Source: Desarmillaria ectypa (Eukaryota > Basidiomycota > Agaricomycetes > Agaricales > Physalacriaceae). From it: a DNA stretch of 64,000 nt. Position numbers and translations under genes: made by a program. Shown in pieces: positions 16,788-52,816 of this stretch (within the stretch, counting starts at the first letter, position 1; each line of letters starts with the position of its first letter). Where the stretch lies: contig JAUDYN010000004.1 of NCBI GenBank assembly GCA_030407005.1, positions 186,001 through 250,000 of the forward strand. Direction: 5' to 3'. Under the pieces are notes generated by a model, which saw only the letters and a program-made list of their open reading frames with translations, had not been told where the DNA came from and searched no databases.

Positions 16788-18858
<2,071 letters not shown>

Positions 18859-19300: not shown

Positions 19301-19315
19301 GGGGGAGGAATCACG

Positions 19316-25027: not shown

Positions 25028-25173
25028 AAGAAAGTCTGCAACCCTTGAGCAACCCTAAAGCCATGCCGATGCATTACGTAACAATAGGCACCCTCCGGAC
25101 CTGAGTTCCGGGTTGATCGACCTGTAACGTTGACCAATCACCGCCAAGCTCTACTCAGTGCCAAGTTGTCAAG

Positions 25174-27381: not shown

Positions 27382-27605
27382 GTTGTGGATCGTTGGGTAG
27401 GGAAGAACTTTCGGTTAAAGTTCTTGGACTGGTTGTACTTCAGTGCTCTGTTTCTTGCCTAGTAGTAAATTGTTAGTTTCCCCATGTTGTGATTGGGTCA
27501 ATAAAACTAGGTACAGAATGAATTCCTTTGAATAGGGTTAGATGTCCCGGCCAGCTGATGCAAGCCAGGCCCAGATGATTACTAGGTCATGTCGAAGTAC
27601 TATCA

Positions 27606-28800: not shown

Positions 28801-29230
28801 GTGGATGAAGGTTTGATATATCTATGCGAGTAACAGATAAAACTGACCATGAATGTGCCTGGCTTGGTCCTTAATTGGACGGAATCGAAATGAGTTGAGG
28901 AGCATCAGTACCGACGCGTTCCCTAGCAACCATCTCATATCCAGCCTCGAAAAAAGGGCAGGCGTAGGATAGGAATATCAAGTAAGGAGCACAACGGCGC
29001 ATCCCTTTCCATCTATGAGTCAACATGGGCAGACCATGACTCATAGGGAAGCCCCCAATGGTACATAGACAAAAATAATAAGTATTACACTCCACAAGAT
29101 AACCTACACATAAAGGGTATCCTCTATACACATAACTGAAATCGAAAGCAAAAAGATCAATGATGCTGAGATATAAGATCGTCAAGAATCTAGACAACAG
29201 GATACGTGAGCAATAACGATCACCAGATAG

Positions 29231-32200
29231 TCAGAAACGAACATTATCCATTTCCGCAAGTTGCTTAAAAGAACTCGCATATATTTCCCGAATTTTAGGG
29301 TGTAAACTTGTAGCATCGACGGGCCGCCCAAAAAGCATCTCGTCGACAGGATCCAACGTTGGAAGGGGAGGAGCAGCCGACTTGGAAGCTCTATACTCTA
29401 TCACCGCCAGCATATTAGACACCCCAAAATCATCCTTCGGGAGGAACGGTCGACGGATTGGACGAGGTTTTTGTACTGTACCACCGGAATGGGCGCTATC
29501 AGTGGGTGATCTAGAATATATTGCAGGCGGAGTAGGTGCGGTAACGTAACCTGAGAGGTCTGACATTACAGAACCAATAGACGGTTGCCGGCGACTTGCA
29601 GCAGAGGTAGGCTTCGCGGTGGGTGTCGTTGTTCCCGGCCTACTACGTACTTCAGGAGACGCACGGCCGTATGGGTTGACAGCAGGAATCGGCGTTCTTG
29701 AGACCAGACCCGCTGAAGCAGGCGTTGTTGAGCGCGAATGTGTTGCAATGCCTTCAATAGTGTTGTCGTCTAATGAATATTGTGAGGAAGGTGATGTCGA
29801 TCGCAATGATGGCGTCCTGCTATTGCCGCTGCTAGCGCTAAGCTGGCGTCGATGTCCGGACTTCCCAGACTTGATCTTGTTCAAGACGCGATCAAGTTTA
29901 TTGCCTCTGTTGTTGTCCAAAACACCTTCTAACAAATCGTTCTGATGAGTTCGGTCGCTCCCTTTAAGTTCCTCCTCAACGAGGTCGCTAATGTCGTACG
30001 TTTCACCATCTGGTTCAACATACGAGTAGCGCATCTTGTCATTGGCATCATATCGAGAACTACGAAGCACAGCGTTTCCCGGTAAGAGAAGATCCAATCC
30101 CCTAACGGAATTGGTTTGCGCAGAAACGATAGCCATTTGATTGGCCCGTTTGGCTTGCCGTTGAGCTTCGATGATCTCCTGACGAGAGGGTTGTAGCGGC
30201 TTGACTGCCTCTGAAGGTGCTCCAGTGGTCGGGACTTCAGAACCGGCACTAGAAACAGACTCGCGGTGAAGGTTGCGTAGCGCAATCTCATCCAGAGGCG
30301 CCGACATCCGACGACGAGAGGAGGAAGTACGATATGAAACAGCACGACGGAGGATGAACACAGGATCGTCCTCTCCGACATCATCAGCGCTACCCAACAA
30401 CTGAGCGGAATCGATAGAGCGACGTTTGTTGTCTGGGTAACGGCGCTCCACTGCACGATAATTGGGCGGTCGAGGATATGCGTCGATGATTCTGCTCGAC
30501 GGTGACAATTCTCGTTCTAAAATATTATTAGTTCAACATCGACTGATAAAACCAAATGAAAAAGTTTACCATGATTGCCAACATCAACAGTGAGACCATA
30601 ACGAACGCGAGAAATACTCCTTCTCTTAGTCGACTTGTCCTCAACCTCATCCCCACCATCCACCACACCGTCTAGGATACCAAACCTCTCCAAGCCAAGC
30701 TCAATGACCTCTGCAACAGTAACATTCTTCGGGAACACGAAGACCTTGCGACGGAGATGTTGAGTGATACCAGGGGACGCCACAGAACCAGACTGAGAAC
30801 GATGGTTCAACGTCTCCTTGAACACGATTGCCTCAGTCTGAGGATCAAACACCATATCGTCCGGTAGGTCGTCAGGGTAGATCACGAGCTGCAATGCGAA
30901 CCGGTACGACGGCGAGCTGAACCTCTCCGGTGGGACAGTGGGTCCCATAGTCGACACGGTTAAATACTGTTGATTAGGCGAAGAAAATACTTCCGAATCA
31001 CCCGAGGAGTCCGCAGCCAACAAAGTTTCCTCGTTCTCAAGACTATCTTCTTCACCGCCAGCTCTATTAAGATAAAATTTGACGGCAGAGTCATCCGTAA
31101 AGTCGTTCATCGCAAGCTTTCTGATGGCTGGATGCATCGAAAGATTGCTCGTTATCGAGCTAATGCTTCCCACACTGCTCCTCTTGACCTTCGGCAGCTC
31201 CATCGCAGCCTCCACGAGCGTCTCAAAGACACCCAAAGGCTTCTCCTGATCCTGCAATCTCGCTGACGATCCCTCAATTTGCTTCACGGTCAGATAATAA
31301 TCTTGCGCGTTCTCGGCGGAAGGTAACCGGAATCGCTGCATCGCTTGTTTGACCAGATCAGATGAAGTAGTGGAAGAATTGAGCAAGACGGTTTTGAAAG
31401 TGGCGTCGGTTTGCAGATTTTTGCCAGCGAACACACGGATGACACTGAGGTCGGGAACGCCTTGACCATCCATAGATGAGCCCGTAAGGATCAAAGAGCC
31501 AGGTCGTTGACGTGTCGTCGGCGGAGCTAAACCAGTACCAGAACCGGCAGACCCTGAGGGACTGTGATACGAGCTTGGTGGCATGACAGCAGAGGCAGAT
31601 TGGAGTCCGTAAGAAGGCTGAGCTTCCGGTGGAGATGATGGGGAACGATTGAGATATTGCAGATACAACGCTTGTTGTTGCTGATCGCGTTGACGCAGCT
31701 GTGATACCTGGGGAGGTGAACTCGTCGCCGCGGAGTATTGTTCCTGTTGTTGTCGCTTGGCTTCAGCGGCATCCCTAGTTGCTTGTGTCTGCGCCTGCTG
31801 CTGCATCTGTTGTTGTTGTTGTTGTTGTTGCTGTTGCTGTTGTTGTTGCTGCATGATGCTACTGGTGGCTGCGGGAGGAGCGGCCAAATCTGAGGGTCGA
31901 TGGCCAGATCTGCTCGAATCTTCAGACGTCCGTCCATCTCCTTCGATTGAACCAGACAGGCTATTCTTCTCCTTGCTCCCGCCATTCTTGTCCTTCTTCC
32001 TCCCAAAGATACTGAACATACCCCCTTTCTTTTTCTTATCCTTCCCGTCATCGTCCGATTCGGTCCGTTCTTTGCGCAATTTACCACCACCAGATGTAGT
32101 ACCTGGTAGTTTCCCTTGGGAACCACTTGCAGAGCTCGTTGGCGGCGCCATCCTTTCTTTACCCTTCGGTTTCTTCCTTGCGGCTTCTTCTTCTTCTTCC

Positions 32201-33423
32201 CGAAGTCTCTTCCTTTCTTCCTCCTGTCCACGCTGTTGCATGACGGCACTAGGGGGTATTGGTCCACCGACATGCTTTAAAGTTTCATCAGAATCGCGGG
32301 CAATAGAAGGCGTGGCAGTTAGTTTTCGGGTTTCTACGACTTCGGCCGGATCAAGGTTTTTCAAGTTCGTAGGACTGTTTTGAACGAGACGCTCCTGGGA
32401 CGACGGTGATCTGAGAGGTCGTGTCGCCTGTTCTTGCTGTATTTGAAGCTGCTGTACTTGAGAGGATTGTTGCTGGGAATTTCCGGGTCGCAAGCCTGTA
32501 GAAATAACGTCGCTAGAACCTGCTGCCTGAACGTCTGTACGAGCCGCCAGTTGTCGAGCTCTCAATTCCTCTGCGGCAGAATCCTCCCATTGCATTCCAT
32601 CATCAGGTTCCATCGGCATACGAATGCCTCTCGCTGCATGCTCTTCCATCATCCTCATATGCTCCTCCTCAGCCAAATCAGCATCTTCTCCTTCATACGG
32701 TGTATCGTCCCACTCGATATCCTCTTCCTCTTCCTCTTCTTCGTGCCAGACTGCAGGAGGGTAGCGATGAACATAATACCCGGCACGAAAAGAGACGCTA
32801 CGAGTACGAGAGCGTGAACGGATGGTGCTGAATACAGGCGAATGAGACTGGTTGGAACCCTGTTGGGGTTCGACATTGATACGGTCCTGGGGAGTCATAC
32901 CAAGTTCTTCGTCTGGGGTTGCTTGTGCCAGCTAGAGAGAGCACTGGTCAAATGGCTGCTCAAGGTAGAGTCCAAGAAAACTCACGTCGACGTTACGATG
33001 CTTGTTAAGTCTTGCTAACCTCTCAAAGGGCGTCTCAATATTCTCCGCTGGAATGTATCCCACTTCCTGGGTCTTCAAGACGCGGACTAGCCACCAATAA
33101 CTGTTACTGTCGTCCATCAAGAATAGGCTATCCCCTTTGACAACGTTGGCTTGGCCTTCCACAGTCGCTGCGAAGCTGTGGAATGCATATACGAGGTCGA
33201 AATCGATAGCCTCATTGGGTATAGAGAGATCAGACGACACGTCGTCGTCCTCGTAGTGTTCCTCACCGTCAGAGTCGTCCTCGAGCACAGAGTGCTGTTC
33301 TTCTTCGTCCATATAATTGGCGGCCTCCGCGTGCGCCTCTATGTGATCGTTGTCGCCGGCACGGATTCGGTCGCGCAAGTCGTACGTGTCAGAACCTGAT
33401 GGTCGTCGTGTTTCGATTTGCAT
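29231..33423 (-). CDS. SH3 and RA-like domain polarity protein, Tea4/Bud14 type (left copy)
   Basis: Three exons (mirror of 48186-48623, 48678-51039, 51093-52378) join in frame to 1,361 aa. An acidic N-terminus leads to an SH3 domain at about residues 77-132 with VYAFHSFAATVEGQANVVKG, DDSNSYWWLVRV and GYIPAENIETPFERLARLN, a signature I know from fungal Tea4/Bud14 proteins. These place formin and type 1 phosphatase activity at cell tips. Next come a KKPKGKERM basic patch, a 15-residue polyQ near residue 505, and a ubiquitin-like RA-type domain at about 640-715 (DLSVIRVFAGKNLQ...TVKQIEG). The rest is disordered and Ser-rich. It is divergent from ADE2, with 382 bases between the start codons. 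Confidence 0.8.
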
Positions 33424-33805
33424 AGCATAAAATGGGTAATAAAGGGAGATAAATGAACGTTATTAGAGTGCCAGACCCTGGTAGAATATGTGAAATATTT
33501 TTCAGCCGAAGGGCAGCTGAAGAAGGAAGATGGTCAGCTAGCTGTTTTCCGTTCAATCCTTCTTACGCACAGATGAAATTCGTGAATCAGAAAAATGTTG
33601 CACGGAGGATAGGCACACTAGCAGAATATGAGCCCTGGGGACATCCAGCATGAATTACGAAAAAGAACGGTGGTCGAGGGAGCGGTACAGCAGGATGAGC
33701 CCCTTATTTGGTTCCTGTGCCATCATCTTCGATGCCAAATACAAATTTTCCCGAAAGTGCTATTTTTGGGCCATCATTGATTCTCTTCCCTTCATCTCTG
33801 CAGCA
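33424..33805. promoter_or_regulatory. Shared divergent promoter of Tea4/Bud14-like gene and ADE2
   Basis: Only 382 bases lie between the two start codons, so both genes must use this region for initiation. The identical mirror is 47,804-48,185. No specific factor site was identified. Confidence 0.6.
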
Positions 33806-35747
33806 ATGTCGAAGAAAGTCGGGATCCTTGGTGGGAGTAAGTTGTAGTATGGATTTGATAGCACATCACTTACCATTCCGCAGGCTTTTCTGAAATCTCC
33901 AGAGTAATACCCTAAATATCTATTTCGCTCAGGTGGTGGCCAGTTGGGTCGCATGCTAGCCGCATCGGCGTCTCTTTTAAATATCCCTGTCGTCATCCTC
34001 GATGTTGGAGAATCTGCACCTGCCAAGCAAGTCATCGCGCACAGCGGTGATCTTTCGCATATCGATGGCTCATTCACAGATCCTCAAAAGATACATGAAT
34101 TGGCGTCGAAAGTCGATGTCCTGACGGTAGAAATCGAACATGTCGATGTCGATGCCTTGGAGAACCTTGTTTCTGCCACTAGTGGTCGATTAGCTATCCA
34201 TCCCAGCCCTCGAACGATAAAAATAATACAAGACAAGTTCCACCAAAAAGAGCATCTCCGAGAGCATGGAGTCCCTGTGTCTGCTTTCAGAGAGGTTCAG
34301 TCATCTGTTGATGCTATTGCTTCAGCTTCAAACGAGCTCGGTCTTCCTCTCATGTTGAAGAGTCGAACACTAGCCTACGACGGTCGGGGGAACTACGTCC
34401 TTCGTGACATATCAGACGCTGAAAACGCTCTCGCCACCTTGGATGGCCGGCCACTATATGCAGAGAAGTGGGTCCCGTTCATTAAGGAGATTGCTGTTAT
34501 GGTGGTACGATCAGCGGATGGGACGGTTAGGTCGTATCCTGCCGTAGAGACCGTTCACAAGGAGAACGTCTGTCACCTGGTATTTGCACCTCTTCGTAGC
34601 CGGCACCCTGATCTCTCTTCGAGAGCTCAAAAAGTTGCTGAAGCTGCAGTGGCGACCTTTGAGGGCGCTGGTGTTTTTGGCGTCGAGATGTTCCTTATGG
34701 AAAATGGTAGGCATTCGTTTGATTCTTCAGAAAGTTCTCGATCTCATTTCGCAGGTAATCTGTATGTTAATGAAATCGCCCCACGGCCACACAATTCTGG
34801 TCATTACACCATAGAAGCCTGCGAAACGTCTCAATACGAAAACCATCTACGGAGTATTCTATCATTACCGCTAGGATCCACGGACCTCAAAGTCCCTTCC
34901 GCCGCAATGTTAAACCTGATCGGTTCATCCTCTTCCATGTCCAGTATCACCTGCATCACAGATGTTGCTCTAACAATCCCTGGCGCTTCCACTCACCTTT
35001 ACGGCAAGGCAGAATGTCGGAAAGGCCGCAAAATGGGTCACATAACCATTGTAGCAAACTCAGATGCCCATCTCCGCGCTAAACTCCGGCCCTTACTCGA
35101 AGCCACCTCAGGGAGCACTCCCGAGGAGCTCGAAAAATACACCCCCATCCCTCCAAGTCCCGGGTCTGGCCACTCCAACAAGAACCCCCTCGTCGGAGTC
35201 ATCATGGGCTCCGACTCAGATCTACCAGTAATGCTTCCCGCCGCGCGCATCCTGGACAAGTTCAGCATCCCCTACGAACTCACCATAGTCTCGGCACATC
35301 GTACTCCCGACAGACTCGTGGAATATGCCCGCTCGGCCTCGTCACGAGGTCTCCGCGTTATCATAGCAGGAGCAGGGGGCGCTGCCCATCTCCCCGGTAT
35401 GGTCGCTGCTATGACCGCTCTTCCCGTCATCGGCGTGCCCGTCAAGGGCAGTTCACTCGATGGTGTTGACTCGCTCCATAGTATTGTTCAAATGCCTGTA
35501 AGTTTCGTCCTCTTATACATCGATTGCCACCTCTCTCTCTCTCATGCGCACTCAGCGAGGTATTCCGGTAGCGACTGTAGCCATTAACAATGCCACCAAC
35601 GCTGGTTTACTCGCCGTAAGGATTCTCTCTGCCGGCCAGCCTCATCTCATTCACGAGATGGATGCGTACCTGAACGGATTGGAGAAGGAGGTCCTAGGTA
35701 AAGTTGAGCGCTTAGAAAACATAGGGTGGGAGGCGTACAAGCCATGA
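33806..35747 (+). CDS. ADE2: Phosphoribosylaminoimidazole carboxylase (left copy)
   Basis: Four exons: 33806-33836, 33933-34706, 34755-35497 and 35556-35747, about 579 aa. It is the fused fungal enzyme of purine synthesis step 6: an N-terminal ATP-grasp domain like PurK ([60 protein letters not shown]) and a C-terminal PurE domain ([49 protein letters not shown]). Catalytic motifs are intact. The 48-nt intron at 34707-34754 is a multiple of three without a stop, so unspliced messages would still be read through. ADE2 is normally single copy; here an identical second copy lies at 45862-47803. Confidence 0.95.
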
Positions 35748-36573
35748 TGAAAAACCAATATCATTGCATCATTGCCTTCGCTCCCTTCACCCATCCTCAT
35801 CCTTCATCCAGGGTGAATTTACTTGTCCTATGTGTCTTGTCACGTCACGTCACAGATGCATAAAAACATTGGTTTTCACCGTTTTGACCACATCAAAAGC
35901 TTGGCTTCACCTCAATTACTTCAATATTATCCGTGGTGCGACCGTATGGATACAGTCGTTGCTATCCGCGGTGAATTGCCAAGGTATACCGTTGCAACAT
36001 TTAGACGCCATCAGACTCTATAATCTCATTGATTCCGCTCTTCCAGCGTATTTTCTCAGGGTTGCTGCTCACAAGCCATAGTATTTACATGCTCATGTGA
36101 GCTGATATACTCCGATATTATAGACGAACAGCGCATTGCGGGTTAACACTGGAAATTTAGATTCTCACACCTGAGTTCTCGACCCTTCTTCTACACCGAC
36201 CCTCTTCTGTCGACACATTGCAAAGTCAAAGTATAGTTTTCTAGTGTTATACTGCCTATCCGGATACAAACAGAATGCGTCAGGCAAAGCATTTCCTGAA
36301 CTATTTCTAAAGCTATTCTTAGCAGGCATAAAAAAAATTTATCAACATCGTTACCGGCGTCTTGTTTATAACCGACAGATGTTTTCATGCCCTGCACCAA
36401 TCATCGCAATGTCGCATGTACTGGATCACCTTTTTCCCGTGGCCAAGAGTAAAACCTCAAACCCCTCTCGGTTACGGACCGCCCGCTGAGCCAAGAACTT
36501 ACGTACTCGCGAGTAGAATAGTCTATTCGTCGCACTCGATGTAGAAGAATCCGACAGATATCCGAGACTGACG

Positions 36574-36580
36574 TATATAA
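36574..36580 (+). promoter_or_regulatory. TATA box of pectate lyase gene
   Basis: A clean TATATAA lies 85 bases before the ATG at 36665, which fits a regulated secreted-enzyme gene. The mirror is at 45,029-45,035. Confidence 0.6.
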
Positions 36581-36664
36581 GGAGGGACACAGAAACATAG
36601 ACAGACAGACAACCAATCCTTGGTTCTCGTTTCTCTCTCTTTTACTCCCCATACCCGGTTCAGC

Positions 36665-38146
36665 ATGAAGTGGATCTCTCCTTTCTTCGCCATCGCTGCC
36701 TTCCAGCTCGTTTCTGTCCTGGTACGTGTTGCGTCCCCTGTGGTGGTCCGCTAACATACTCACCCGCCATTTTAGGCCGCCCCAGCGAACGAAATCGTCA
36801 AGCGGACTAGCACCAGCGAGTCAGCCTCAGTCGGTTATGCCACCTTAAACGGAGGGTATGTCCTTCCTAGTTTTCGCTCCTGACGGCATCTTCACACTCT
36901 TGCTTAGCACTAAGGGAGGAGCTGGCGGCACTACTACCACTGTCACCACTCTCGCTGCCCTCACTTCTGCTGTTTCCGGTGACTCGGCCAAGATCGTCAT
37001 CATCAAGGGTATATCAGAATAACGTTGCCATGTTTAATAACACTGACATTCTCCTTAGGAACCATTACAGGCAACACCGTTGTAAAGGTTGGCTCCAACA
37101 CCTCCGTTCTCGGCGCCTCTGGCTCTCGTACGTTTTCCTTCCATTTTTCCTGAATGACTACGCGCTCAAGGACGCGTCATATAGTCCTCAGTGGTGTCGG
37201 CCTTCGTGTCATCCAAGAGTCGAACGTCATTATCCGTAACGTCAAGGTCCAAAAGGTGCTCGCCAGCGCTGGTGATGCCATCGCCATTCAAGAAGCACAC
37301 AACGTCTGGGTTGACCACGTCGATCTCTCTAGTGACTTGAGCCACGACAAGGTATGTCCTTCCAAGTTCTAAATGAGGTGGTTGCTCATTCATCTCTTTA
37401 GGACTAGTAAGTTCTGTTCCTCCCTCCCCAGACAAGGTCCAACTGTTTTTCTTCAGCTACGACGGTCTTCTTGACATAACACACGGCTCCTACGGCATCA
37501 CTGTCACCAACAGCAAGCTGTACAACCACTGGAAAGCTTCGCTCGTCGGCCACTCCGACAGCAACGGGAGCGAAGATGCTGCTCTCAGAATTACTTTTGC
37601 TCTTAACTGGTGGCAGAACTTGAACTCTCGTGGTCCTTCCTTCCGTTTCGGTATGAGTGATTTCCCCTGTCATTTCGTGCAGTGCTCATCAATTCTCATA
37701 GGCCAGGGCCATATCTTCAACAACTAGTAAGTCGTGCTTATGAGATTCGGGACGTAAGCTCATCATCATTAGCTATGTCAACCTTAATGACGGTATCAAC
37801 ACCCGAGATGGGGCACAGCTCCTTATTCAGAACAATGTTTTCACAGGTGATTATCCAGTTTCCCAATACTAGTAGTACTTATACTTAATATTTATTAGGC
37901 ACTACCGATGCCATCTACTCCACTGATGGCGGCTACGCTGTTGCTTCTGGAAATGGTGGGTCAATCCTTTCTTTTCCCCGACAATTGTCTAAACAATTTT
38001 ATCATACAGACTTTGGCAGCGGTAAGAACACCGCCCCAGCAGGATCGATCTCTGCTTCAAGCGTCGGGTACTCTTTCACGCTCCTTGACACCGGCAAGGT
38101 TGCGTCGTACGTCCAATCCAACGCCGGCCAAACACTTTCGTTTTAA
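36665..38146 (+). CDS. Secreted pectate lyase, polysaccharide lyase family 1 (left copy)
   Basis: A signal peptide (MKWISPFFAIAAFQLVSVL) and a KR processing site (EIVKR) precede a parallel beta-helix lyase spread over many small exons. PL1 landmarks: GVGLRVIQESNVIIRNVKV, AIAIQEAHNVWVDHVDLS, YYDGLLDITHGSYGITVTNS, HWKASLVGHSDSN, then NSRGPSFRFGQGHIFNNYY. The Arg of SRGPSFRFG fits the catalytic base and the Asp residues around DYYDGLLD fit Ca2+ binding. It cleaves de-esterified pectin by beta-elimination in plant cell walls. It ends at TAA after NAGQTLSF. The whole gene with its TATA box is repeated at 43463-44944. Confidence 0.88.
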
Positions 38147-38311
38147 AGGTCACATCGTGGTAGAAATAGTTGTTAGAATTTGTCAATCGCTGGGAAGTAA
38201 ATAAAAGGATCTTATCAAAAGAAGCAGTAAATAAATAGTGCAGATATCGATCTCAACGTGATCTGATCATGATGTGACAATATCCTCCTTTCCTTCTTTC
38301 TTTCAACAAGC

Positions 38312-38780
38312 ATGGGTAAGGAAACAACAACTTCAGTAATGACTAGCAAAAGATTAACCATTTGCTTTAGTCAACGTTACAGGCGAGATTGAAATCCTCA
38401 GGGGTGAGATACTCTCTCTCATGATTATATCGATAATTCTGAAGTATTGGTGGTTACGTTCAGAGGCCATAAAGGAGCATGGCTCTCTCAATCCCAACGG
38501 GAAGAGCAGTGTCTCCTATGGGGTACTCTTCGATAAGACCGCCAACACCCGTACGTCTGATTTTTTGGAGTTGAAAAAACAGTGTCTTCATGATTGCTTT
38601 CAAAGTGGAAGCATTGAACGGAACGTTGCGTGCGGCAAAGCGTCAGAAGAAGGTAATTTTAATCTCTAGGCCTTTCCTCAAATTCTTACTGTACTGGGTG
38701 ACGTACAGATTGCCTTCGACGGCGAGCTGCTGATGATGCCTAGAGATAAAAGTGTACAAGTTGTTCTACTGGAGGCGTAG
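38312..38780 (+). CDS. Costars/ABRACL family protein (left copy)
   Basis: A small protein of about 80 aa built from four exons. The first exon appears to be only 4 nt, ATGG at 38312-38315, followed by GTAAGG...CTTTAG; this gives MVNVTGEIEILR. Next are EHGSLNPNGKSSVSYGVLFD, VEALNGTLRAAKRQKK and IAFDGELLMMPRDKSVQVVL. This matches the Costars domain of ABRACL: GKxSVxxGVLF, then EAL-x-GTL-x-AAKR, then FxGELL. ABRACL proteins influence actin turnover through cofilin in animals and slime moulds. It lies tail-to-tail with the p31comet-like gene. Confidence 0.82.
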
Positions 38781-39068
38781 TTGGTGGTCTCTTGTTTACT
38801 TACGATACCAGGCAGAAAGATCGTATATAACGTACTATGTAGCAGGACTCGACAGCACCGGAGAAACAACTAAGATATGTAGCAATTCTGCTAATCTTAA
38901 CGACGGAGGCCGTAGTAGTAATAACATGCACGAAGTTCAGCTTCAGTTGTCATCGAACCGTTGTGTGTCATGAATAATTGTCCAGATAGCGTAAAAAAGG
39001 TATATGAATACAGGTATAATGATGCTCGATGTCCGTACAACAAATCAATGCAGTGAGTATATACACCA

Positions 39069-40336
39069 TTACCAACCAGCGAAGCCTACAAGTTTACCAT
39101 CCCAACTCCACCATATCATCTCATCCTCCTCATTCTTCACGTCCGTTCCCAGATCTGTACTCGGCTTTTGACATGCGACCCACAAGCCCTCGATCTTCGC
39201 CTTTTTCTTGCTGGTCCTCGGCCCATGCCCTGCTGCCCCAAGGAACTGTTCCAGAAAGTTATTCATAGAGGCCGTAACATTCTGTCGAGGTATCCAAGCG
39301 GGATGAACAAACCGTCTTGGGGCGCGAATCAATATGTGTGTCTGTGTAGGACCTACAGTCGTCTTCGTAAAGGAAAACAGATGCTGCTGCATAAAGAATG
39401 GCTTACTTATATCAGATGCCAATCCGTTTCCGTCACAGTCTGCCGATACGAGCGCTCGCGAGAGTAGTCTGTCCGCAGTCCGAAGGATACGTTGCTCTTC
39501 GGCGAAGGCTGATAGTGGTGGTGGTGAAGATGACCGGTCGTCCTCGTCGCTCTCATCGCTCTCATCCGAGTCGGAAGGTCCCTCTTCGTCACCGTCACTG
39601 CTCTGGCCTTCTATATCATTGTTATCCTCATCATCGTCATTTTCATCGTCATCACTCTCACTGCTTCCACTCTCGTCCTCCAAATATATATCATCTCTTT
39701 GCCCCCACACTTTGGCCTCCAAACCATCCACTGCTAGCATGACCTTTGACTTTGCGGATCCGATGCTGGGTCCCACCAAGATCGCCATGTACGCTCTACT
39801 TGTATGAATGGTTTCAGACCGTTTTTCTTGAGGAAAACATCGAGCAAAAGCGGTAGATAAAGCGGTAAATGTCGTCCCTAAATGTGACAATAGCGTGTCG
39901 AAGGAATCCAGTAACTCTGACCGCAATTTCATAGCGCGGGCGTTGGCCTAGCATTCTGTAAGGTTAAGGCATATGCGTAAAAGGAACTGCACACCTTTCC
40001 CGTGATCGCTATCCGAGCTAGCTGTGGAACAGGCCTTACGGCAACCTTCAGTGACCGATCGATTCTACGAGCACCCTCAACTTACAGAGGAATCTGATTT
40101 TTCAGGAAAAGGACGTGCCCTAGTAGACTGCAGGCTATACTTGCAGCAATAGTATCCGTTATTGAGTCCATCTCGAGTTGTACTGACGGGATTTTGCTTT
40201 CCTCAACAACGTTGTCTTTGCCCCCACTCTCCTCGGCTGTTTTCGGCGCTGTGGCATTTGTTATCGGCCGCTGAGTGGACACAGGTACAGAGAAGTCGAC
40301 ATCAGAAGGTAAAAACGACGGTGCAAGCAGAGGCAT
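39069..40336 (-). CDS. p31comet (MAD2L1BP)-like protein, complete left copy
   Basis: Three exons (40086-40336, 39995-40034, 39069-39947) with introns of 51 and 47 nt give 389 aa. Candidate p31comet features in order: CSLLGHVLFLKNQIPLPVPQ, LLDSFDTLLSHL, MAILVGPSIGSAKSKVML, an acidic loop, LRTADRLLSRAL, and a C-terminal DEMIWWSWDGKLVGFAGW, which would be the end segment that threads under the fold. p31comet is a HORMA-like partner of Mad2 that with TRIP13/Pch2 turns off the spindle checkpoint. The link rests on remembered family patterns, not a search. The first 50 codons and promoter lie outside IR1. Confidence 0.6.
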
Positions 40337-40984: not shown

Positions 40985-41422
40985 TGCCCGGTTTCAAGAA
41001 GACGACGCCGTATTTCTTCTCAAAACGCATGAACTTTCGGGACCTAGAGACACAGGATATACCAAGGCAACAGGTAAAAATGCAAATAAGACCCACGCTA
41101 CGATTCTCTGCTTCTTACCACCCGAGAGCTCGGTGTTATTATTGAGCCTTTCAAGCTCAACCTGTAACGGATGCGCATCGTGTCTTTTCCCTCCTTCAGC
41201 TTGGCCAAGCAGTGCGTTGCACCACCGAGCTTGGTAGCACGGTCAATGATCGTCAAATCTCTCACATGCTGGATGCACCCTACACCGACTTTCTCACCAA
41301 GCGAAACAGGGAAGAGCGAGTGGTCTTGCGTCAGAATCGCTGTGGCCCTACTAAACTCGGACATTCGGCACTTGAACATTGGTATGCCGTCTACGATGAG
41401 CGAATCTGGACCTGATGTTGGA
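40985..41422 (-). pseudogene. ABC transporter nucleotide-binding domain fragment in the IR1 spacer
   Basis: Minus-strand frames read SLIVDGIPMFKCRMSEF, then ILTQDHSLFPVSLGEKVGVG (Q-loop region), KLGGATHCLAKLKEG, RLNNNTELSGGKKQRIV (ABC signature), a short intron, and FMRFEKKYGVVFLK. The Walker A part lies beyond the junction at 41,422 and is missing, and the Walker B part stops near 40,985. It is therefore a truncated piece of an exporter-type ATPase domain. A related, more decayed copy lies at 62,525-62,935 on the same strand. Its last codons abut the right IR1 arm directly. Confidence 0.75.
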
Positions 41423-42540
41423 TCAGTACAACTCGAGATGGACTCAATAACGGATACTATTGCTGCAAGTATAGCCTGCAGTCTACTAGGGCACGTCCTT
41501 TTCCTGAAAAATCAGATTCCTCTGTAAGTTGAGGGTGCTCGTAGAATCGATCGGTCACTGAAGGTTGCCGTAAGGCCTGTTCCACAGCTAGCTCGGATAG
41601 CGATCACGGGAAAGGTGTGCAGTTCCTTTTACGCATATGCCTTAACCTTACAGAATGCTAGGCCAACGCCCGCGCTATGAAATTGCGGTCAGAGTTACTG
41701 GATTCCTTCGACACGCTATTGTCACATTTAGGGACGACATTTACCGCTTTATCTACCGCTTTTGCTCGATGTTTTCCTCAAGAAAAACGGTCTGAAACCA
41801 TTCATACAAGTAGAGCGTACATGGCGATCTTGGTGGGACCCAGCATCGGATCCGCAAAGTCAAAGGTCATGCTAGCAGTGGATGGTTTGGAGGCCAAAGT
41901 GTGGGGGCAAAGAGATGATATATATTTGGAGGACGAGAGTGGAAGCAGTGAGAGTGATGACGATGAAAATGACGATGATGAGGATAACAATGATATAGAA
42001 GGCCAGAGCAGTGACGGTGACGAAGAGGGACCTTCCGACTCGGATGAGAGCGATGAGAGCGACGAGGACGACCGGTCATCTTCACCACCACCACTATCAG
42101 CCTTCGCCGAAGAGCAACGTATCCTTCGGACTGCGGACAGACTACTCTCGCGAGCGCTCGTATCGGCAGACTGTGACGGAAACGGATTGGCATCTGATAT
42201 AAGTAAGCCATTCTTTATGCAGCAGCATCTGTTTTCCTTTACGAAGACGACTGTAGGTCCTACACAGACACACATATTGATTCGCGCCCCAAGACGGTTT
42301 GTTCATCCCGCTTGGATACCTCGACAGAATGTTACGGCCTCTATGAATAACTTTCTGGAACAGTTCCTTGGGGCAGCAGGGCATGGGCCGAGGACCAGCA
42401 AGAAAAAGGCGAAGATCGAGGGCTTGTGGGTCGCATGTCAAAAGCCGAGTACAGATCTGGGAACGGACGTGAAGAATGAGGAGGATGAGATGATATGGTG
42501 GAGTTGGGATGGTAAACTTGTAGGCTTCGCTGGTTGGTAA
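41423..42540 (+). pseudogene. p31comet-like gene, 5'-truncated right copy
   Basis: Identical to the left copy from residue 51 onward: exons 41423-41523, 41575-41614 and 41662-42540. The promoter and first 50 codons are replaced by spacer sequence antisense to the ABC fragment. The fused frame is open upstream: a Met at about 41390 gives MSESGPDVGSVQLEMD after further codons, and an internal in-frame ATG precedes DSITDTIAAS. A shortened protein that keeps the predicted Mad2-binding core could therefore still be made. No own promoter is evident. Confidence 0.75.
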
Positions 42541-42828
42541 TGGTGTATATACTCACTGCATTGATTTGTTGTACGGACATCGAGCATCATTATACCTGTA
42601 TTCATATACCTTTTTTACGCTATCTGGACAATTATTCATGACACACAACGGTTCGATGACAACTGAAGCTGAACTTCGTGCATGTTATTACTACTACGGC
42701 CTCCGTCGTTAAGATTAGCAGAATTGCTACATATCTTAGTTGTTTCTCCGGTGCTGTCGAGTCCTGCTACATAGTACGTTATATACGATCTTTCTGCCTG
42801 GTATCGTAAGTAAACAAGAGACCACCAA

Positions 42829-43297
42829 CTACGCCTCCAGTAGAACAACTTGTACACTTTTATCTCTAGGCATCATCAGCAGCTCGCCGTCGAAGGCAAT
42901 CTGTACGTCACCCAGTACAGTAAGAATTTGAGGAAAGGCCTAGAGATTAAAATTACCTTCTTCTGACGCTTTGCCGCACGCAACGTTCCGTTCAATGCTT
43001 CCACTTTGAAAGCAATCATGAAGACACTGTTTTTTCAACTCCAAAAAATCAGACGTACGGGTGTTGGCGGTCTTATCGAAGAGTACCCCATAGGAGACAC
43101 TGCTCTTCCCGTTGGGATTGAGAGAGCCATGCTCCTTTATGGCCTCTGAACGTAACCACCAATACTTCAGAATTATCGATATAATCATGAGAGAGAGTAT
43201 CTCACCCCTGAGGATTTCAATCTCGCCTGTAACGTTGACTAAAGCAAATGGTTAATCTTTTGCTAGTCATTACTGAAGTTGTTGTTTCCTTACCCAT
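42829..43297 (-). CDS. Costars/ABRACL family protein (right copy)
   Basis: Mirror of 38312-38780 with the same 4-nt first exon (43294-43297) and all splice sites intact. Same protein as the left copy. Confidence 0.8.
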
Positions 43298-43462
43298 GCT
43301 TGTTGAAAGAAAGAAGGAAAGGAGGATATTGTCACATCATGATCAGATCACGTTGAGATCGATATCTGCACTATTTATTTACTGCTTCTTTTGATAAGAT
43401 CCTTTTATTTACTTCCCAGCGATTGACAAATTCTAACAACTATTTCTACCACGATGTGACCT

Positions 43463-44944
43463 TTAAAACGAAAGTGTTTGGCCGGCGTTGGATTGGACGT
43501 ACGACGCAACCTTGCCGGTGTCAAGGAGCGTGAAAGAGTACCCGACGCTTGAAGCAGAGATCGATCCTGCTGGGGCGGTGTTCTTACCGCTGCCAAAGTC
43601 TGTATGATAAAATTGTTTAGACAATTGTCGGGGAAAAGAAAGGATTGACCCACCATTTCCAGAAGCAACAGCGTAGCCGCCATCAGTGGAGTAGATGGCA
43701 TCGGTAGTGCCTAATAAATATTAAGTATAAGTACTACTAGTATTGGGAAACTGGATAATCACCTGTGAAAACATTGTTCTGAATAAGGAGCTGTGCCCCA
43801 TCTCGGGTGTTGATACCGTCATTAAGGTTGACATAGCTAATGATGATGAGCTTACGTCCCGAATCTCATAAGCACGACTTACTAGTTGTTGAAGATATGG
43901 CCCTGGCCTATGAGAATTGATGAGCACTGCACGAAATGACAGGGGAAATCACTCATACCGAAACGGAAGGAAGGACCACGAGAGTTCAAGTTCTGCCACC
44001 AGTTAAGAGCAAAAGTAATTCTGAGAGCAGCATCTTCGCTCCCGTTGCTGTCGGAGTGGCCGACGAGCGAAGCTTTCCAGTGGTTGTACAGCTTGCTGTT
44101 GGTGACAGTGATGCCGTAGGAGCCGTGTGTTATGTCAAGAAGACCGTCGTAGCTGAAGAAAAACAGTTGGACCTTGTCTGGGGAGGGAGGAACAGAACTT
44201 ACTAGTCCTAAAGAGATGAATGAGCAACCACCTCATTTAGAACTTGGAAGGACATACCTTGTCGTGGCTCAAGTCACTAGAGAGATCGACGTGGTCAACC
44301 CAGACGTTGTGTGCTTCTTGAATGGCGATGGCATCACCAGCGCTGGCGAGCACCTTTTGGACCTTGACGTTACGGATAATGACGTTCGACTCTTGGATGA
44401 CACGAAGGCCGACACCACTGAGGACTATATGACGCGTCCTTGAGCGCGTAGTCATTCAGGAAAAATGGAAGGAAAACGTACGAGAGCCAGAGGCGCCGAG
44501 AACGGAGGTGTTGGAGCCAACCTTTACAACGGTGTTGCCTGTAATGGTTCCTAAGGAGAATGTCAGTGTTATTAAACATGGCAACGTTATTCTGATATAC
44601 CCTTGATGATGACGATCTTGGCCGAGTCACCGGAAACAGCAGAAGTGAGGGCAGCGAGAGTGGTGACAGTGGTAGTAGTGCCGCCAGCTCCTCCCTTAGT
44701 GCTAAGCAAGAGTGTGAAGATGCCGTCAGGAGCGAAAACTAGGAAGGACATACCCTCCGTTTAAGGTGGCATAACCGACTGAGGCTGACTCGCTGGTGCT
44801 AGTCCGCTTGACGATTTCGTTCGCTGGGGCGGCCTAAAATGGCGGGTGAGTATGTTAGCGGACCACCACAGGGGACGCAACACGTACCAGGACAGAAACG
44901 AGCTGGAAGGCAGCGATGGCGAAGAAAGGAGAGATCCACTTCAT
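43463..44944 (-). CDS. Secreted pectate lyase PL1 (right copy)
   Basis: Mirror of 36665-38146 including the upstream TATATAA at 45,029-45,035. Signal peptide, Ca2+ site and catalytic Arg region are unchanged, so both copies should be functional if transcribed. Confidence 0.86.
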
Positions 44945-45861
44945 GCTGAACCGGGTATGGGGAGTAAAAGAGAGAGAAACGAGAACCAAGGATTGGTTGT
45001 CTGTCTGTCTATGTTTCTGTGTCCCTCCTTATATACGTCAGTCTCGGATATCTGTCGGATTCTTCTACATCGAGTGCGACGAATAGACTATTCTACTCGC
45101 GAGTACGTAAGTTCTTGGCTCAGCGGGCGGTCCGTAACCGAGAGGGGTTTGAGGTTTTACTCTTGGCCACGGGAAAAAGGTGATCCAGTACATGCGACAT
45201 TGCGATGATTGGTGCAGGGCATGAAAACATCTGTCGGTTATAAACAAGACGCCGGTAACGATGTTGATAAATTTTTTTTATGCCTGCTAAGAATAGCTTT
45301 AGAAATAGTTCAGGAAATGCTTTGCCTGACGCATTCTGTTTGTATCCGGATAGGCAGTATAACACTAGAAAACTATACTTTGACTTTGCAATGTGTCGAC
45401 AGAAGAGGGTCGGTGTAGAAGAAGGGTCGAGAACTCAGGTGTGAGAATCTAAATTTCCAGTGTTAACCCGCAATGCGCTGTTCGTCTATAATATCGGAGT
45501 ATATCAGCTCACATGAGCATGTAAATACTATGGCTTGTGAGCAGCAACCCTGAGAAAATACGCTGGAAGAGCGGAATCAATGAGATTATAGAGTCTGATG
45601 GCGTCTAAATGTTGCAACGGTATACCTTGGCAATTCACCGCGGATAGCAACGACTGTATCCATACGGTCGCACCACGGATAATATTGAAGTAATTGAGGT
45701 GAAGCCAAGCTTTTGATGTGGTCAAAACGGTGAAAACCAATGTTTTTATGCATCTGTGACGTGACGTGACAAGACACATAGGACAAGTAAATTCACCCTG
45801 GATGAAGGATGAGGATGGGTGAAGGGAGCGAAGGCAATGATGCAATGATATTGGTTTTTCA

Positions 45862-47803
45862 TCATGGCTTGTACGCCTCCCACCCTATGTTTTCTAAGCG
45901 CTCAACTTTACCTAGGACCTCCTTCTCCAATCCGTTCAGGTACGCATCCATCTCGTGAATGAGATGAGGCTGGCCGGCAGAGAGAATCCTTACGGCGAGT
46001 AAACCAGCGTTGGTGGCATTGTTAATGGCTACAGTCGCTACCGGAATACCTCGCTGAGTGCGCATGAGAGAGAGAGAGGTGGCAATCGATGTATAAGAGG
46101 ACGAAACTTACAGGCATTTGAACAATACTATGGAGCGAGTCAACACCATCGAGTGAACTGCCCTTGACGGGCACGCCGATGACGGGAAGAGCGGTCATAG
46201 CAGCGACCATACCGGGGAGATGGGCAGCGCCCCCTGCTCCTGCTATGATAACGCGGAGACCTCGTGACGAGGCCGAGCGGGCATATTCCACGAGTCTGTC
46301 GGGAGTACGATGTGCCGAGACTATGGTGAGTTCGTAGGGGATGCTGAACTTGTCCAGGATGCGCGCGGCGGGAAGCATTACTGGTAGATCTGAGTCGGAG
46401 CCCATGATGACTCCGACGAGGGGGTTCTTGTTGGAGTGGCCAGACCCGGGACTTGGAGGGATGGGGGTGTATTTTTCGAGCTCCTCGGGAGTGCTCCCTG
46501 AGGTGGCTTCGAGTAAGGGCCGGAGTTTAGCGCGGAGATGGGCATCTGAGTTTGCTACAATGGTTATGTGACCCATTTTGCGGCCTTTCCGACATTCTGC
46601 CTTGCCGTAAAGGTGAGTGGAAGCGCCAGGGATTGTTAGAGCAACATCTGTGATGCAGGTGATACTGGACATGGAAGAGGATGAACCGATCAGGTTTAAC
46701 ATTGCGGCGGAAGGGACTTTGAGGTCCGTGGATCCTAGCGGTAATGATAGAATACTCCGTAGATGGTTTTCGTATTGAGACGTTTCGCAGGCTTCTATGG
46801 TGTAATGACCAGAATTGTGTGGCCGTGGGGCGATTTCATTAACATACAGATTACCTGCGAAATGAGATCGAGAACTTTCTGAAGAATCAAACGAATGCCT
46901 ACCATTTTCCATAAGGAACATCTCGACGCCAAAAACACCAGCGCCCTCAAAGGTCGCCACTGCAGCTTCAGCAACTTTTTGAGCTCTCGAAGAGAGATCA
47001 GGGTGCCGGCTACGAAGAGGTGCAAATACCAGGTGACAGACGTTCTCCTTGTGAACGGTCTCTACGGCAGGATACGACCTAACCGTCCCATCCGCTGATC
47101 GTACCACCATAACAGCAATCTCCTTAATGAACGGGACCCACTTCTCTGCATATAGTGGCCGGCCATCCAAGGTGGCGAGAGCGTTTTCAGCGTCTGATAT
47201 GTCACGAAGGACGTAGTTCCCCCGACCGTCGTAGGCTAGTGTTCGACTCTTCAACATGAGAGGAAGACCGAGCTCGTTTGAAGCTGAAGCAATAGCATCA
47301 ACAGATGACTGAACCTCTCTGAAAGCAGACACAGGGACTCCATGCTCTCGGAGATGCTCTTTTTGGTGGAACTTGTCTTGTATTATTTTTATCGTTCGAG
47401 GGCTGGGATGGATAGCTAATCGACCACTAGTGGCAGAAACAAGGTTCTCCAAGGCATCGACATCGACATGTTCGATTTCTACCGTCAGGACATCGACTTT
47501 CGACGCCAATTCATGTATCTTTTGAGGATCTGTGAATGAGCCATCGATATGCGAAAGATCACCGCTGTGCGCGATGACTTGCTTGGCAGGTGCAGATTCT
47601 CCAACATCGAGGATGACGACAGGGATATTTAAAAGAGACGCCGATGCGGCTAGCATGCGACCCAACTGGCCACCACCTGAGCGAAATAGATATTTAGGGT
47701 ATTACTCTGGAGATTTCAGAAAAGCCTGCGGAATGGTAAGTGATGTGCTATCAAATCCATACTACAACTTACTCCCACCAAGGATCCCGACTTTCTTCGA
47801 CAT
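45862..47803 (-). CDS. ADE2: Phosphoribosylaminoimidazole carboxylase (right copy)
   Basis: Mirror of 33806-35747; exons 47773-47803, 46903-47676, 46112-46854 and 45862-46053. All ATP-grasp and PurE motifs are intact. A second full copy of a normally single-copy housekeeping gene is unusual and makes it a convenient copy-number test for IR1. Confidence 0.93.
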
Positions 47804-48185
47804 TGCTGCAGAGATGAAGGGAAGAGAATCAATGATGGCCCAAAAATAGCACTTTCGGGAAAATTTGTATTTGGCATCGAAGATGATGGCACAGGAACCA
47901 AATAAGGGGCTCATCCTGCTGTACCGCTCCCTCGACCACCGTTCTTTTTCGTAATTCATGCTGGATGTCCCCAGGGCTCATATTCTGCTAGTGTGCCTAT
48001 CCTCCGTGCAACATTTTTCTGATTCACGAATTTCATCTGTGCGTAAGAAGGATTGAACGGAAAACAGCTAGCTGACCATCTTCCTTCTTCAGCTGCCCTT
48101 CGGCTGAAAAATATTTCACATATTCTACCAGGGTCTGGCACTCTAATAACGTTCATTTATCTCCCTTTATTACCCATTTTATGCT

Positions 48186-51100
48186 ATGCAAATCGAAACA
48201 CGACGACCATCAGGTTCTGACACGTACGACTTGCGCGACCGAATCCGTGCCGGCGACAACGATCACATAGAGGCGCACGCGGAGGCCGCCAATTATATGG
48301 ACGAAGAAGAACAGCACTCTGTGCTCGAGGACGACTCTGACGGTGAGGAACACTACGAGGACGACGACGTGTCGTCTGATCTCTCTATACCCAATGAGGC
48401 TATCGATTTCGACCTCGTATATGCATTCCACAGCTTCGCAGCGACTGTGGAAGGCCAAGCCAACGTTGTCAAAGGGGATAGCCTATTCTTGATGGACGAC
48501 AGTAACAGTTATTGGTGGCTAGTCCGCGTCTTGAAGACCCAGGAAGTGGGATACATTCCAGCGGAGAATATTGAGACGCCCTTTGAGAGGTTAGCAAGAC
48601 TTAACAAGCATCGTAACGTCGACGTGAGTTTTCTTGGACTCTACCTTGAGCAGCCATTTGACCAGTGCTCTCTCTAGCTGGCACAAGCAACCCCAGACGA
48701 AGAACTTGGTATGACTCCCCAGGACCGTATCAATGTCGAACCCCAACAGGGTTCCAACCAGTCTCATTCGCCTGTATTCAGCACCATCCGTTCACGCTCT
48801 CGTACTCGTAGCGTCTCTTTTCGTGCCGGGTATTATGTTCATCGCTACCCTCCTGCAGTCTGGCACGAAGAAGAGGAAGAGGAAGAGGATATCGAGTGGG
48901 ACGATACACCGTATGAAGGAGAAGATGCTGATTTGGCTGAGGAGGAGCATATGAGGATGATGGAAGAGCATGCAGCGAGAGGCATTCGTATGCCGATGGA
49001 ACCTGATGATGGAATGCAATGGGAGGATTCTGCCGCAGAGGAATTGAGAGCTCGACAACTGGCGGCTCGTACAGACGTTCAGGCAGCAGGTTCTAGCGAC
49101 GTTATTTCTACAGGCTTGCGACCCGGAAATTCCCAGCAACAATCCTCTCAAGTACAGCAGCTTCAAATACAGCAAGAACAGGCGACACGACCTCTCAGAT
49201 CACCGTCGTCCCAGGAGCGTCTCGTTCAAAACAGTCCTACGAACTTGAAAAACCTTGATCCGGCCGAAGTCGTAGAAACCCGAAAACTAACTGCCACGCC
49301 TTCTATTGCCCGCGATTCTGATGAAACTTTAAAGCATGTCGGTGGACCAATACCCCCTAGTGCCGTCATGCAACAGCGTGGACAGGAGGAAGAAAGGAAG
49401 AGACTTCGGGAAGAAGAAGAAGAAGCCGCAAGGAAGAAACCGAAGGGTAAAGAAAGGATGGCGCCGCCAACGAGCTCTGCAAGTGGTTCCCAAGGGAAAC
49501 TACCAGGTACTACATCTGGTGGTGGTAAATTGCGCAAAGAACGGACCGAATCGGACGATGACGGGAAGGATAAGAAAAAGAAAGGGGGTATGTTCAGTAT
49601 CTTTGGGAGGAAGAAGGACAAGAATGGCGGGAGCAAGGAGAAGAATAGCCTGTCTGGTTCAATCGAAGGAGATGGACGGACGTCTGAAGATTCGAGCAGA
49701 TCTGGCCATCGACCCTCAGATTTGGCCGCTCCTCCCGCAGCCACCAGTAGCATCATGCAGCAACAACAACAGCAACAGCAACAACAACAACAACAACAAC
49801 AGATGCAGCAGCAGGCGCAGACACAAGCAACTAGGGATGCCGCTGAAGCCAAGCGACAACAACAGGAACAATACTCCGCGGCGACGAGTTCACCTCCCCA
49901 GGTATCACAGCTGCGTCAACGCGATCAGCAACAACAAGCGTTGTATCTGCAATATCTCAATCGTTCCCCATCATCTCCACCGGAAGCTCAGCCTTCTTAC
50001 GGACTCCAATCTGCCTCTGCTGTCATGCCACCAAGCTCGTATCACAGTCCCTCAGGGTCTGCCGGTTCTGGTACTGGTTTAGCTCCGCCGACGACACGTC
50101 AACGACCTGGCTCTTTGATCCTTACGGGCTCATCTATGGATGGTCAAGGCGTTCCCGACCTCAGTGTCATCCGTGTGTTCGCTGGCAAAAATCTGCAAAC
50201 CGACGCCACTTTCAAAACCGTCTTGCTCAATTCTTCCACTACTTCATCTGATCTGGTCAAACAAGCGATGCAGCGATTCCGGTTACCTTCCGCCGAGAAC
50301 GCGCAAGATTATTATCTGACCGTGAAGCAAATTGAGGGATCGTCAGCGAGATTGCAGGATCAGGAGAAGCCTTTGGGTGTCTTTGAGACGCTCGTGGAGG
50401 CTGCGATGGAGCTGCCGAAGGTCAAGAGGAGCAGTGTGGGAAGCATTAGCTCGATAACGAGCAATCTTTCGATGCATCCAGCCATCAGAAAGCTTGCGAT
50501 GAACGACTTTACGGATGACTCTGCCGTCAAATTTTATCTTAATAGAGCTGGCGGTGAAGAAGATAGTCTTGAGAACGAGGAAACTTTGTTGGCTGCGGAC
50601 TCCTCGGGTGATTCGGAAGTATTTTCTTCGCCTAATCAACAGTATTTAACCGTGTCGACTATGGGACCCACTGTCCCACCGGAGAGGTTCAGCTCGCCGT
50701 CGTACCGGTTCGCATTGCAGCTCGTGATCTACCCTGACGACCTACCGGACGATATGGTGTTTGATCCTCAGACTGAGGCAATCGTGTTCAAGGAGACGTT
50801 GAACCATCGTTCTCAGTCTGGTTCTGTGGCGTCCCCTGGTATCACTCAACATCTCCGTCGCAAGGTCTTCGTGTTCCCGAAGAATGTTACTGTTGCAGAG
50901 GTCATTGAGCTTGGCTTGGAGAGGTTTGGTATCCTAGACGGTGTGGTGGATGGTGGGGATGAGGTTGAGGACAAGTCGACTAAGAGAAGGAGTATTTCTC
51001 GCGTTCGTTATGGTCTCACTGTTGATGTTGGCAATCATGGTAAACTTTTTCATTTGGTTTTATCAGTCGATGTTGAACTAATAATATTTTAGAACGAGAA

Positions 51101-52378
51101 TTGTCACCGTCGAGCAGAATCATCGACGCATATCCTCGACCGCCCAATTATCGTGCAGTGGAGCGCCGTTACCCAGACAACAAACGTCGCTCTATCGATT
51201 CCGCTCAGTTGTTGGGTAGCGCTGATGATGTCGGAGAGGACGATCCTGTGTTCATCCTCCGTCGTGCTGTTTCATATCGTACTTCCTCCTCTCGTCGTCG
51301 GATGTCGGCGCCTCTGGATGAGATTGCGCTACGCAACCTTCACCGCGAGTCTGTTTCTAGTGCCGGTTCTGAAGTCCCGACCACTGGAGCACCTTCAGAG
51401 GCAGTCAAGCCGCTACAACCCTCTCGTCAGGAGATCATCGAAGCTCAACGGCAAGCCAAACGGGCCAATCAAATGGCTATCGTTTCTGCGCAAACCAATT
51501 CCGTTAGGGGATTGGATCTTCTCTTACCGGGAAACGCTGTGCTTCGTAGTTCTCGATATGATGCCAATGACAAGATGCGCTACTCGTATGTTGAACCAGA
51601 TGGTGAAACGTACGACATTAGCGACCTCGTTGAGGAGGAACTTAAAGGGAGCGACCGAACTCATCAGAACGATTTGTTAGAAGGTGTTTTGGACAACAAC
51701 AGAGGCAATAAACTTGATCGCGTCTTGAACAAGATCAAGTCTGGGAAGTCCGGACATCGACGCCAGCTTAGCGCTAGCAGCGGCAATAGCAGGACGCCAT
51801 CATTGCGATCGACATCACCTTCCTCACAATATTCATTAGACGACAACACTATTGAAGGCATTGCAACACATTCGCGCTCAACAACGCCTGCTTCAGCGGG
51901 TCTGGTCTCAAGAACGCCGATTCCTGCTGTCAACCCATACGGCCGTGCGTCTCCTGAAGTACGTAGTAGGCCGGGAACAACGACACCCACCGCGAAGCCT
52001 ACCTCTGCTGCAAGTCGCCGGCAACCGTCTATTGGTTCTGTAATGTCAGACCTCTCAGGTTACGTTACCGCACCTACTCCGCCTGCAATATATTCTAGAT
52101 CACCCACTGATAGCGCCCATTCCGGTGGTACAGTACAAAAACCTCGTCCAATCCGTCGACCGTTCCTCCCGAAGGATGATTTTGGGGTGTCTAATATGCT
52201 GGCGGTGATAGAGTATAGAGCTTCCAAGTCGGCTGCTCCTCCCCTTCCAACGTTGGATCCTGTCGACGAGATGCTTTTTGGGCGGCCCGTCGATGCTACA
52301 AGTTTACACCCTAAAATTCGGGAAATATATGCGAGTTCTTTTAAGCAACTTGCGGAAATGGATAATGTTCGTTTCTGA
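48186..52378 (+). CDS. Tea4/Bud14-like SH3 protein (right copy)
   Basis: Exons 48186-48623, 48678-51039 and 51093-52378 give 1,361 aa, identical to the left copy, including the same 15-codon CAA/CAG run near 49,758 and all splice sites. The stop lies 160 bases from the outer edge of the palindrome, so the 3' flank differs from the left copy soon after the gene. Confidence 0.8.
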
Positions 52379-52816
52379 CTATCTGGTGATCGTTATTGCT
52401 CACGTATCCTGTTGTCTAGATTCTTGACGATCTTATATCTCAGCATCATTGATCTTTTTGCTTTCGATTTCAGTTATGTGTATAGAGGATACCCTTTATG
52501 TGTAGGTTATCTTGTGGAGTGTAATACTTATTATTTTTAGCTATGTACCATTCGAGGTTTCCGTATGAGCCACATACCTGTAAAGCTTGCTGAGGATCTG
52601 CATAAACTACGCTCCCCATGCACCCATTCGACCGATGCTCAATGTTCAGCTACCCGAGCCACTTCAGATGTGAATACCTCAAATGTCTGATAACAAGAAA
52701 GCCATGTATCATCTAACTAATGAACACTTCGAAGCCAGAAAATCTCTTGCGCATCGTCCTTGTCCATTCGAGCAGATTGTCGCCAACACATAGGACTGCC
52801 CCCCCATATACAAACA

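Follow-up and report, generated by a model that had tools for sequence, protein, structure and literature searches.

Palindromes with long arms, near-perfect arm identity and gene content are a feature of human and ape Y chromosomes. Gene blocks mirrored on a single scaffold have been described in the assemblies of Folsomia candida and Adineta vaga (PMC5490193, PMC5916493). Among fungi, Candida albicans carries whole genes in long inverted repeats, for example of ~3.2 kb, 99.5% identical and ~11.3 kb apart (PMC6591007), and short inverted insertions can arise at breaks in yeast, where the priming end shows imperfect microhomology and the joined end has 0-5 bp of it (PMC11724301). Here, we describe a gene-bearing palindrome in the marsh mushroom Desarmillaria ectypa (assembly GCA_030407005.1; 40,588,909 bp, 32 contigs). 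The palindrome lies within a 64,000-bp stretch, referred to as the window, which corresponds to C27:186001-250000, where C27 denotes the 4,127,147-bp contig JAUDYN010000004.1; coordinates are those of the window unless a contig is named. The junctions, as read from the assembly alone, make it moderately probable that the palindrome is a recent inverted templated duplication made during the repair of a chromosome break. A literature search returned no title on this palindrome, which is not proof that none exists.

Structure and copy number of the palindrome

The left arm (29071-40186) matches the reverse complement of the right arm (41423-52538) at every one of its 11,116 bp, and the exact match ends at both edges, with no further identical base inward or outward. 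A repeat finder recovers the same pair together with 34 diverged bp, and a chance origin of the pair is excluded. Zero differences in 11,116 bp place the 95% upper bound on arm divergence at 2.7e-4, and a recent duplication would account for this identity. The direct comparison and the repeat finder bear out the original prediction of two mirrored arms of this length around a 1,236-bp spacer, and Pfam domains likewise uphold the ADE2, polarity, pectate lyase and ABRACL genes that it placed in them. The attribution to a mushroom genome holds as well. That prediction counted five genes; these four stand, but the fifth, a p31comet-like gene, is whole only on the left, its right copy being 5'-truncated.

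Three arm pieces, together covering 6,918 of the 11,116 bp, were searched in the assembly and match only the two arms and one 631-bp fragment, with no third full copy of these pieces. The spacer has one full-length genome match, at its own place, and two partial matches, one of 168 bp (90%) and one of 187 bp (76%). When the surrounding 104 kb is compared with itself, no other pair exceeds 95% identity. A transposon or other mobile element was considered and rejected on the distribution of the three arm pieces. No transposase is found among the genes identified in the arms, and those genes have relatives across mushrooms.

The inner junctions distinguish original from copy

The p31comet-like gene crosses the left inner junction (40186/40187). 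Twelve protein records were drawn on for this gene, P0127 not being one of them; of the twelve, P0131 and P0132, which start far inside the gene, stand outside the alignment. P0121 and the nine aligned relatives' records (eight species; D. tabescens twice) are continuous across the junction, and an ESKIPSVQL-type sequence spanning it is kept in all nine relatives, three of which start late yet span the junction. As every aligned relative retains this sequence, the left inner junction is old.

The right inner junction (41422/41423) has a different character. Here, the second p31comet-like copy begins at codon 51, and codons 1-50 of the gene lie in the spacer. On the spacer side of the same junction, an ABC-transporter pseudogene fragment is cut, its clear similarity to two paralogues stopping at this point. 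Because two unrelated genes are cut at 41422/41423 and the gene across 40186/40187 is whole, the right arm is the inserted copy and the left arm, on the evidence of these junctions, the original.

The ABC paralogue L058 also informs how the copy may have been joined. At the position where the junction has TTGTACTGATCC, this paralogue has TTGTACGACCC, which suggests joining at TC within a one-base-slipped, imperfect GTACAA similarity, as judged from the paralogue and not from the ancestral ABC sequence itself. This edge is otherwise clean: no homology extends beyond it, no diverged homology above chance was found at the inner edges, and the few-base microhomology is read from L058 only. Decayed ABC-transporter fragments at 40991-41158 and 62529-62696 are 90% identical to each other, and ABC-transporter paralogues occur in longer open frames at C27:54462 and C27:268215.

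A diverged homology at the outer edge

At the outer edges, the exact match gives way to 34 bp of imperfect homology, the short, one-edge homology expected of break repair. With up to 3 mismatches allowed, the genome has the outer-edge motif at two places only, C27:215040-215068 and C27:238541-238569, which are the two palindrome edges, ruling out a dispersed repeat. The best other match of the left-edge 34-mer within 132 kb is 21/34. As a baseline, none of 100 random 34-mers taken from window 1-16000 has a best match above 25; in a set of 150 random 34-mers, the best match is at most 23 in 98 and 24-34 in 52, the high values coming from stretches (window 20100-28900 and 57600-61200) that have a known paralogue in the compared sequence. 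Under one scoring scheme, local alignment of the outer flanks scored 39, as compared to shuffle maxima of 22 to 33.

The possibility that the palindrome was once larger was considered by comparing 18859-29036 with 52573-54357 and was set aside, as nothing convincing emerged beyond the 34-bp edge and the 18-bp end of the neighbouring HNH block. By eye, a possible hairpin is seen at the left outer boundary (window 29013-29046), consisting of a perfect 10-bp inverted repeat around a 14-base loop.

Two neighbouring blocks share the edge anatomy

Two smaller copied blocks (1.9 kb and 0.6 kb) lie within 4.4 kb to the right of the palindrome and overlap by 4 bp at their contact. The second block has 21 differing columns when aligned to its partner, with 19 located in the 308 nearest 56255 and 2, adjacent to each other, in the other 1,590. 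The third block, a copy of part of the p31comet-like gene, shows its only 3 differences within the first 20 bp, leaving 0 in the remaining 611. This clustering at one edge is supported by a likelihood gain of 28.8 for the second block, against a maximum of 10.2 in 2,000 simulations, and by p = 5e-5 for the third (20,000 simulations). No homology extends beyond any of the four ends of these blocks. All three copied blocks, the arms included, therefore pair a diverged edge with a clean one around a near-identical core, with 0/11,116 differences in the arms and 2/1,590 and 0/611 in the neighbouring cores.

A direct age comparison, in which the arms appeared much younger than the blocks (0/11,116 versus 23/2,528; Fisher 1e-17), was not retained, as in each block the differences are concentrated at one edge. 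Repeat-induced point (RIP)-like mutation was also considered and rejected: the arms carry no differences, and the CpG ratio is 0.88-0.99 in seven measured stretches. Both HNH-containing blocks include a 306-bp dispersed repeat (window 17486-17792 and 55424-55730) that is found in at least 35 further genome places at 93-98% identity.

Proposed origin by templated copying

If the palindrome formed during break repair, the process would likely involve: a break separating the spacer, at the ABC-transporter gene fragment, from the sequence that now starts at 52539; annealing of the 3' end of the right broken fragment to the original block at its outer edge, with which it would share the 34 bp of imperfect homology; priming of synthesis from that edge; and copying from 29071 to 40186 (11,116 bp), toward the break. 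The copied end could then be joined to the other broken end by ~2 bp (TC) of microhomology within the imperfect GTACAA similarity, and the ABC fragment would have lost its 5' part. In this sequence of events, the diverged edge would be explained by short imperfect priming homology, which leaves one, and the clean edge by end joining, which leaves the other.

One possibility for where copying ends is that the template was the other broken fragment. Resection of its 5'-ending strand would then stop copying short of the break, and the 1,236-bp spacer would record how far the template strand was resected from the left broken end. The two smaller neighbouring blocks may be products of the same repair. 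As all three cores are near-identical and share the same edge anatomy, the smaller copies probably date from the same episode as the palindrome.

Weighing of alternatives

Several observations weigh against templated copying in break repair. Under looser scoring, the outer edge beat shuffles only at the 100-bp window and not at 300, 1000 or 2500 bp. Translated (tblastx) alignments of the ABC paralogues do not stop at the right inner junction but extend 10 residues into the arm, although with identities of 1/10 and 0/10, and the sequence adjoining 52539 did not yield the 5' part of the ABC gene. The yeast insertions that offer the precedent span 2 to ~150 bp and not 11 kb (PMC11724301). In addition, two p31comet-like genes are also present in D. 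tabescens, which could mean an older duplication, and the diverged edge could be the unconverted rim of an old palindrome. The latter reading, in which gene conversion kept the arms identical and the 34-bp, 308-bp and 20-bp edges are rims that it missed, seems rather unlikely but is a serious rival. Y-chromosome palindromes are known to be maintained in this way (cited in PMC5490193), and the steps from diverged to identical sequence are sharp, as conversion would also give; however, conversion is expected to leave both rims diverged, and three of three copied blocks have one fully clean edge. Arm identity far exceeding that of nearby duplicates, another expected trait of such palindromes, is hard to judge here because the neighbouring cores are near-identical as well. 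Conversion as the agent keeping the arms alike, as the original prediction suggested, is possible but not needed: genes cut at one inner junction, a single diverged outer edge and two similarly built neighbours speak for a recent templated copy. The sister species bears on both readings through its listed proteins. One of its p31comet-like genes (P0125 and P0133) shares a 1,539,713-bp contig with ADE2, and the other shares a 640,312-bp contig with the polarity gene, where contigs of equal size are taken as the same contig. The ADE2-linked gene is annotated as partial, without a start, which would suit an older shared palindrome, but it extends ~10 residues beyond the D. ectypa truncation point, and the D. 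tabescens ADE2 and polarity clusters have one member each (at 90% clustering, where identical copies would stay hidden). The two genes are 94.7% identical to each other and 91.7% and 93.9% identical to that of D. ectypa (228 columns); being closest to each other, they may reflect a separate duplication or diverged alleles. It is doubtful that an ancient Desarmillaria palindrome, with arms and neighbouring inverted blocks continually rewritten by conversion, was resolved in the sister species by reciprocal gene loss. The p31comet-like/ADE2/polarity locus may be prone to rearrangement in the genus.

The original prediction also allowed for a mis-assembly of haplotypes or fold-back reads, to which chimeric reads and a wrong join of nuclei can be added. 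The perfect identity of the arms would fit this, and the four palindrome junctions are read from assembled sequence. A precedent may be found in A. vaga, whose assembly palindromes are unmatched in the related A. ricciae, in which no palindrome was detected (PMC5916493). A fold-back artefact is expected to have a symmetric centre and equal outer sides, but the spacer is unique and asymmetric, and the outer flanks differ, with no homology beyond 34 bp. Considered together with the genome-wide uniqueness of the outer-edge homology, the presence of a further, slightly diverged partial copy, the 4.1-Mb contig and the lack of a third full copy of the three searched arm pieces, this makes an artefact improbable. 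Sister-chromatid fusion and origin-dependent inverted-repeat amplification, followed by partial loss, also yield inverted gene blocks (PMC10766186; PMC10622511). The amplification route would leave three copies with the middle one inverted, whereas the three searched arm pieces reveal two full copies only; the 1.2-kb spacer is asymmetric, and a homologous outer edge is, in our understanding, not predicted by either route, making these origins very improbable.

Genes of the arms and other local repeats

The features of the locus are collected in Table 1. The polarity gene is one whose relatives are named Tea4 by some sources. Its residues 950-1335 are fully (100%) covered by four relatives' records, and its last residues match three, placing the C-terminal end inside the arm in agreement with relatives. 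The spliced ADE2 protein is 90.2-93.6% identical to its six best records over 499 residues, with five of the six named Armillaria, Guyanagaster or Desarmillaria, in agreement with the Armillaria group. Near the palindrome, at window coordinates 78365-79007, lies L049, a paralogue of the pectate lyase region at ~67-75% identity.

The Pfam labels of the p31comet-like gene (RRN3; p31comet, E=0.017) are weak and below cut-off, and the name is therefore used as a label of convenience. Relatives of this gene occur across Agaricales; the first gene model, which served as the query of the relatives search, contained false introns that were corrected by orthologues. In Coprinopsis cinerea, the polarity gene corresponds to CC2G_011038 and the p31comet-like gene to CC2G_011042, with ADE2 on a contig of equal size. 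At this coarse scale, the gene order of the arm looks ancestral.

Table 1. Features of the palindrome locus in window coordinates, with strand in parentheses where assigned
Feature	Position	Right-arm copy	Basis or remark
Left arm, original copy	29071..40186 (+)		0 mismatches to reverse complement of 41423-52538; inner-end gene conserved in relatives
Right arm, derived inverted copy	41423..52538 (-)		p31comet-like copy without first 50 codons; adjoining ABC fragment cut at inner edge
Spacer, 1,236 bp	40187..41422		p31comet-like first 50 codons at left (to ~40336); ABC-transporter pseudogene fragment at right
Left outer diverged edge	29037..29070		27/34 bp match right edge (blastn, 7 mismatches)
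Right outer diverged edge, proposed priming homology	52539..52572		27/34 bp match left edge
ABC-transporter pseudogene fragment, cut at junction	41075..41422 (-)		similarity to two paralogues
Tea4-like SH3/RA polarity gene	29157..33423 (-)	48186-52452 (+)	own gene model; Pfam RA, SH3
ADE2, approximate ends	33806..35725 (+)	~45884-47803 (-)	Pfam ATP-grasp, AIR carboxylase, PurK_C
Pectate lyase, ends of own model	36387..38266 (+)	43343-45222 (-)	Pfam Pectate_lyase_4
ABRACL/Costars gene, approximate	38310..38730 (+)	~42879-43299 (-)	Pfam Costars, 1.9e-16 on 57 residues
p31comet-like gene, 3' end approximate	39069..40336 (-)	from 41423 (+), without first 50 codons	intact left copy crosses left inner junction
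Second copied block, inverted copy of 16962-18858 (HNH_2 gene and 306-bp repeat)	54358..56255 (-)		repeat finder, blastn, Pfam
Source or partner of second block	16962..18858 (+)		repeat finder, blastn
Third copied block, copy of 39230-39860 (p31comet-like gene)	56252..56882 (+)		blastn, genome search

Further repeats are present around the palindrome. Window 20024-28504 and C27:355479-363488 form an ~8-kb inverted segmental duplication at 89-92% identity, with a ~1-kb element inserted in the window copy. An older inverted repeat (window 56884-57514 and 61301-61967; 82% identical) flanks a major-facilitator transporter gene, which has an 84% paralogue on contig C3.

Implications and comparison with known systems

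If real, the palindrome provides a readable natural record of how a large inverted gene duplication arose in a fungus, in which the homology used for priming, the tract that was copied, the site of joining and the genes that were damaged are all nameable at base level. ADE2 and three other complete genes would have been doubled in one step. The locus could also be used to test whether long perfect inverted repeats survive mushroom meiosis without repeat-induced mutation. Were the palindrome instead ancient and kept by conversion, mushroom genes for purine synthesis, polarity and the cell wall would evolve in concert outside any sex chromosome.

In contrast to the Y chromosomes, D. ectypa has one palindrome on an ordinary contig, and ongoing conversion is not proven. 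The mirrored blocks of F. candida and A. vaga are homologous but diverged (PMC5490193, PMC5916493); in one F. candida palindrome, the Dscam2 genes have a synonymous rate of 0.2 (PMC5490193). As compared to the inverted repeats of C. albicans, which likewise hold whole genes in a fungus (PMC6591007), the D. ectypa palindrome is longer, perfectly identical and closely spaced, and the anatomy of its formation can be read. The templated inverted insertions of yeast, attributed to Pol delta synthesis and end joining, resemble it in that one end primes at imperfect inverted homology and the other is captured with microhomology (PMC11724301). Dependence on Pol delta/Pol32 and end-joining genes would be a further expected trait of such duplications. 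The yeast insertions are fold-backs of 2 to ~150 bp (PMC11724301), whereas the D. ectypa copy spans 11,116 bp, includes complete genes and has a donor site more than 12 kb from the break. The palindrome is most likely a natural instance of an already known type of repair accident and not a new system.

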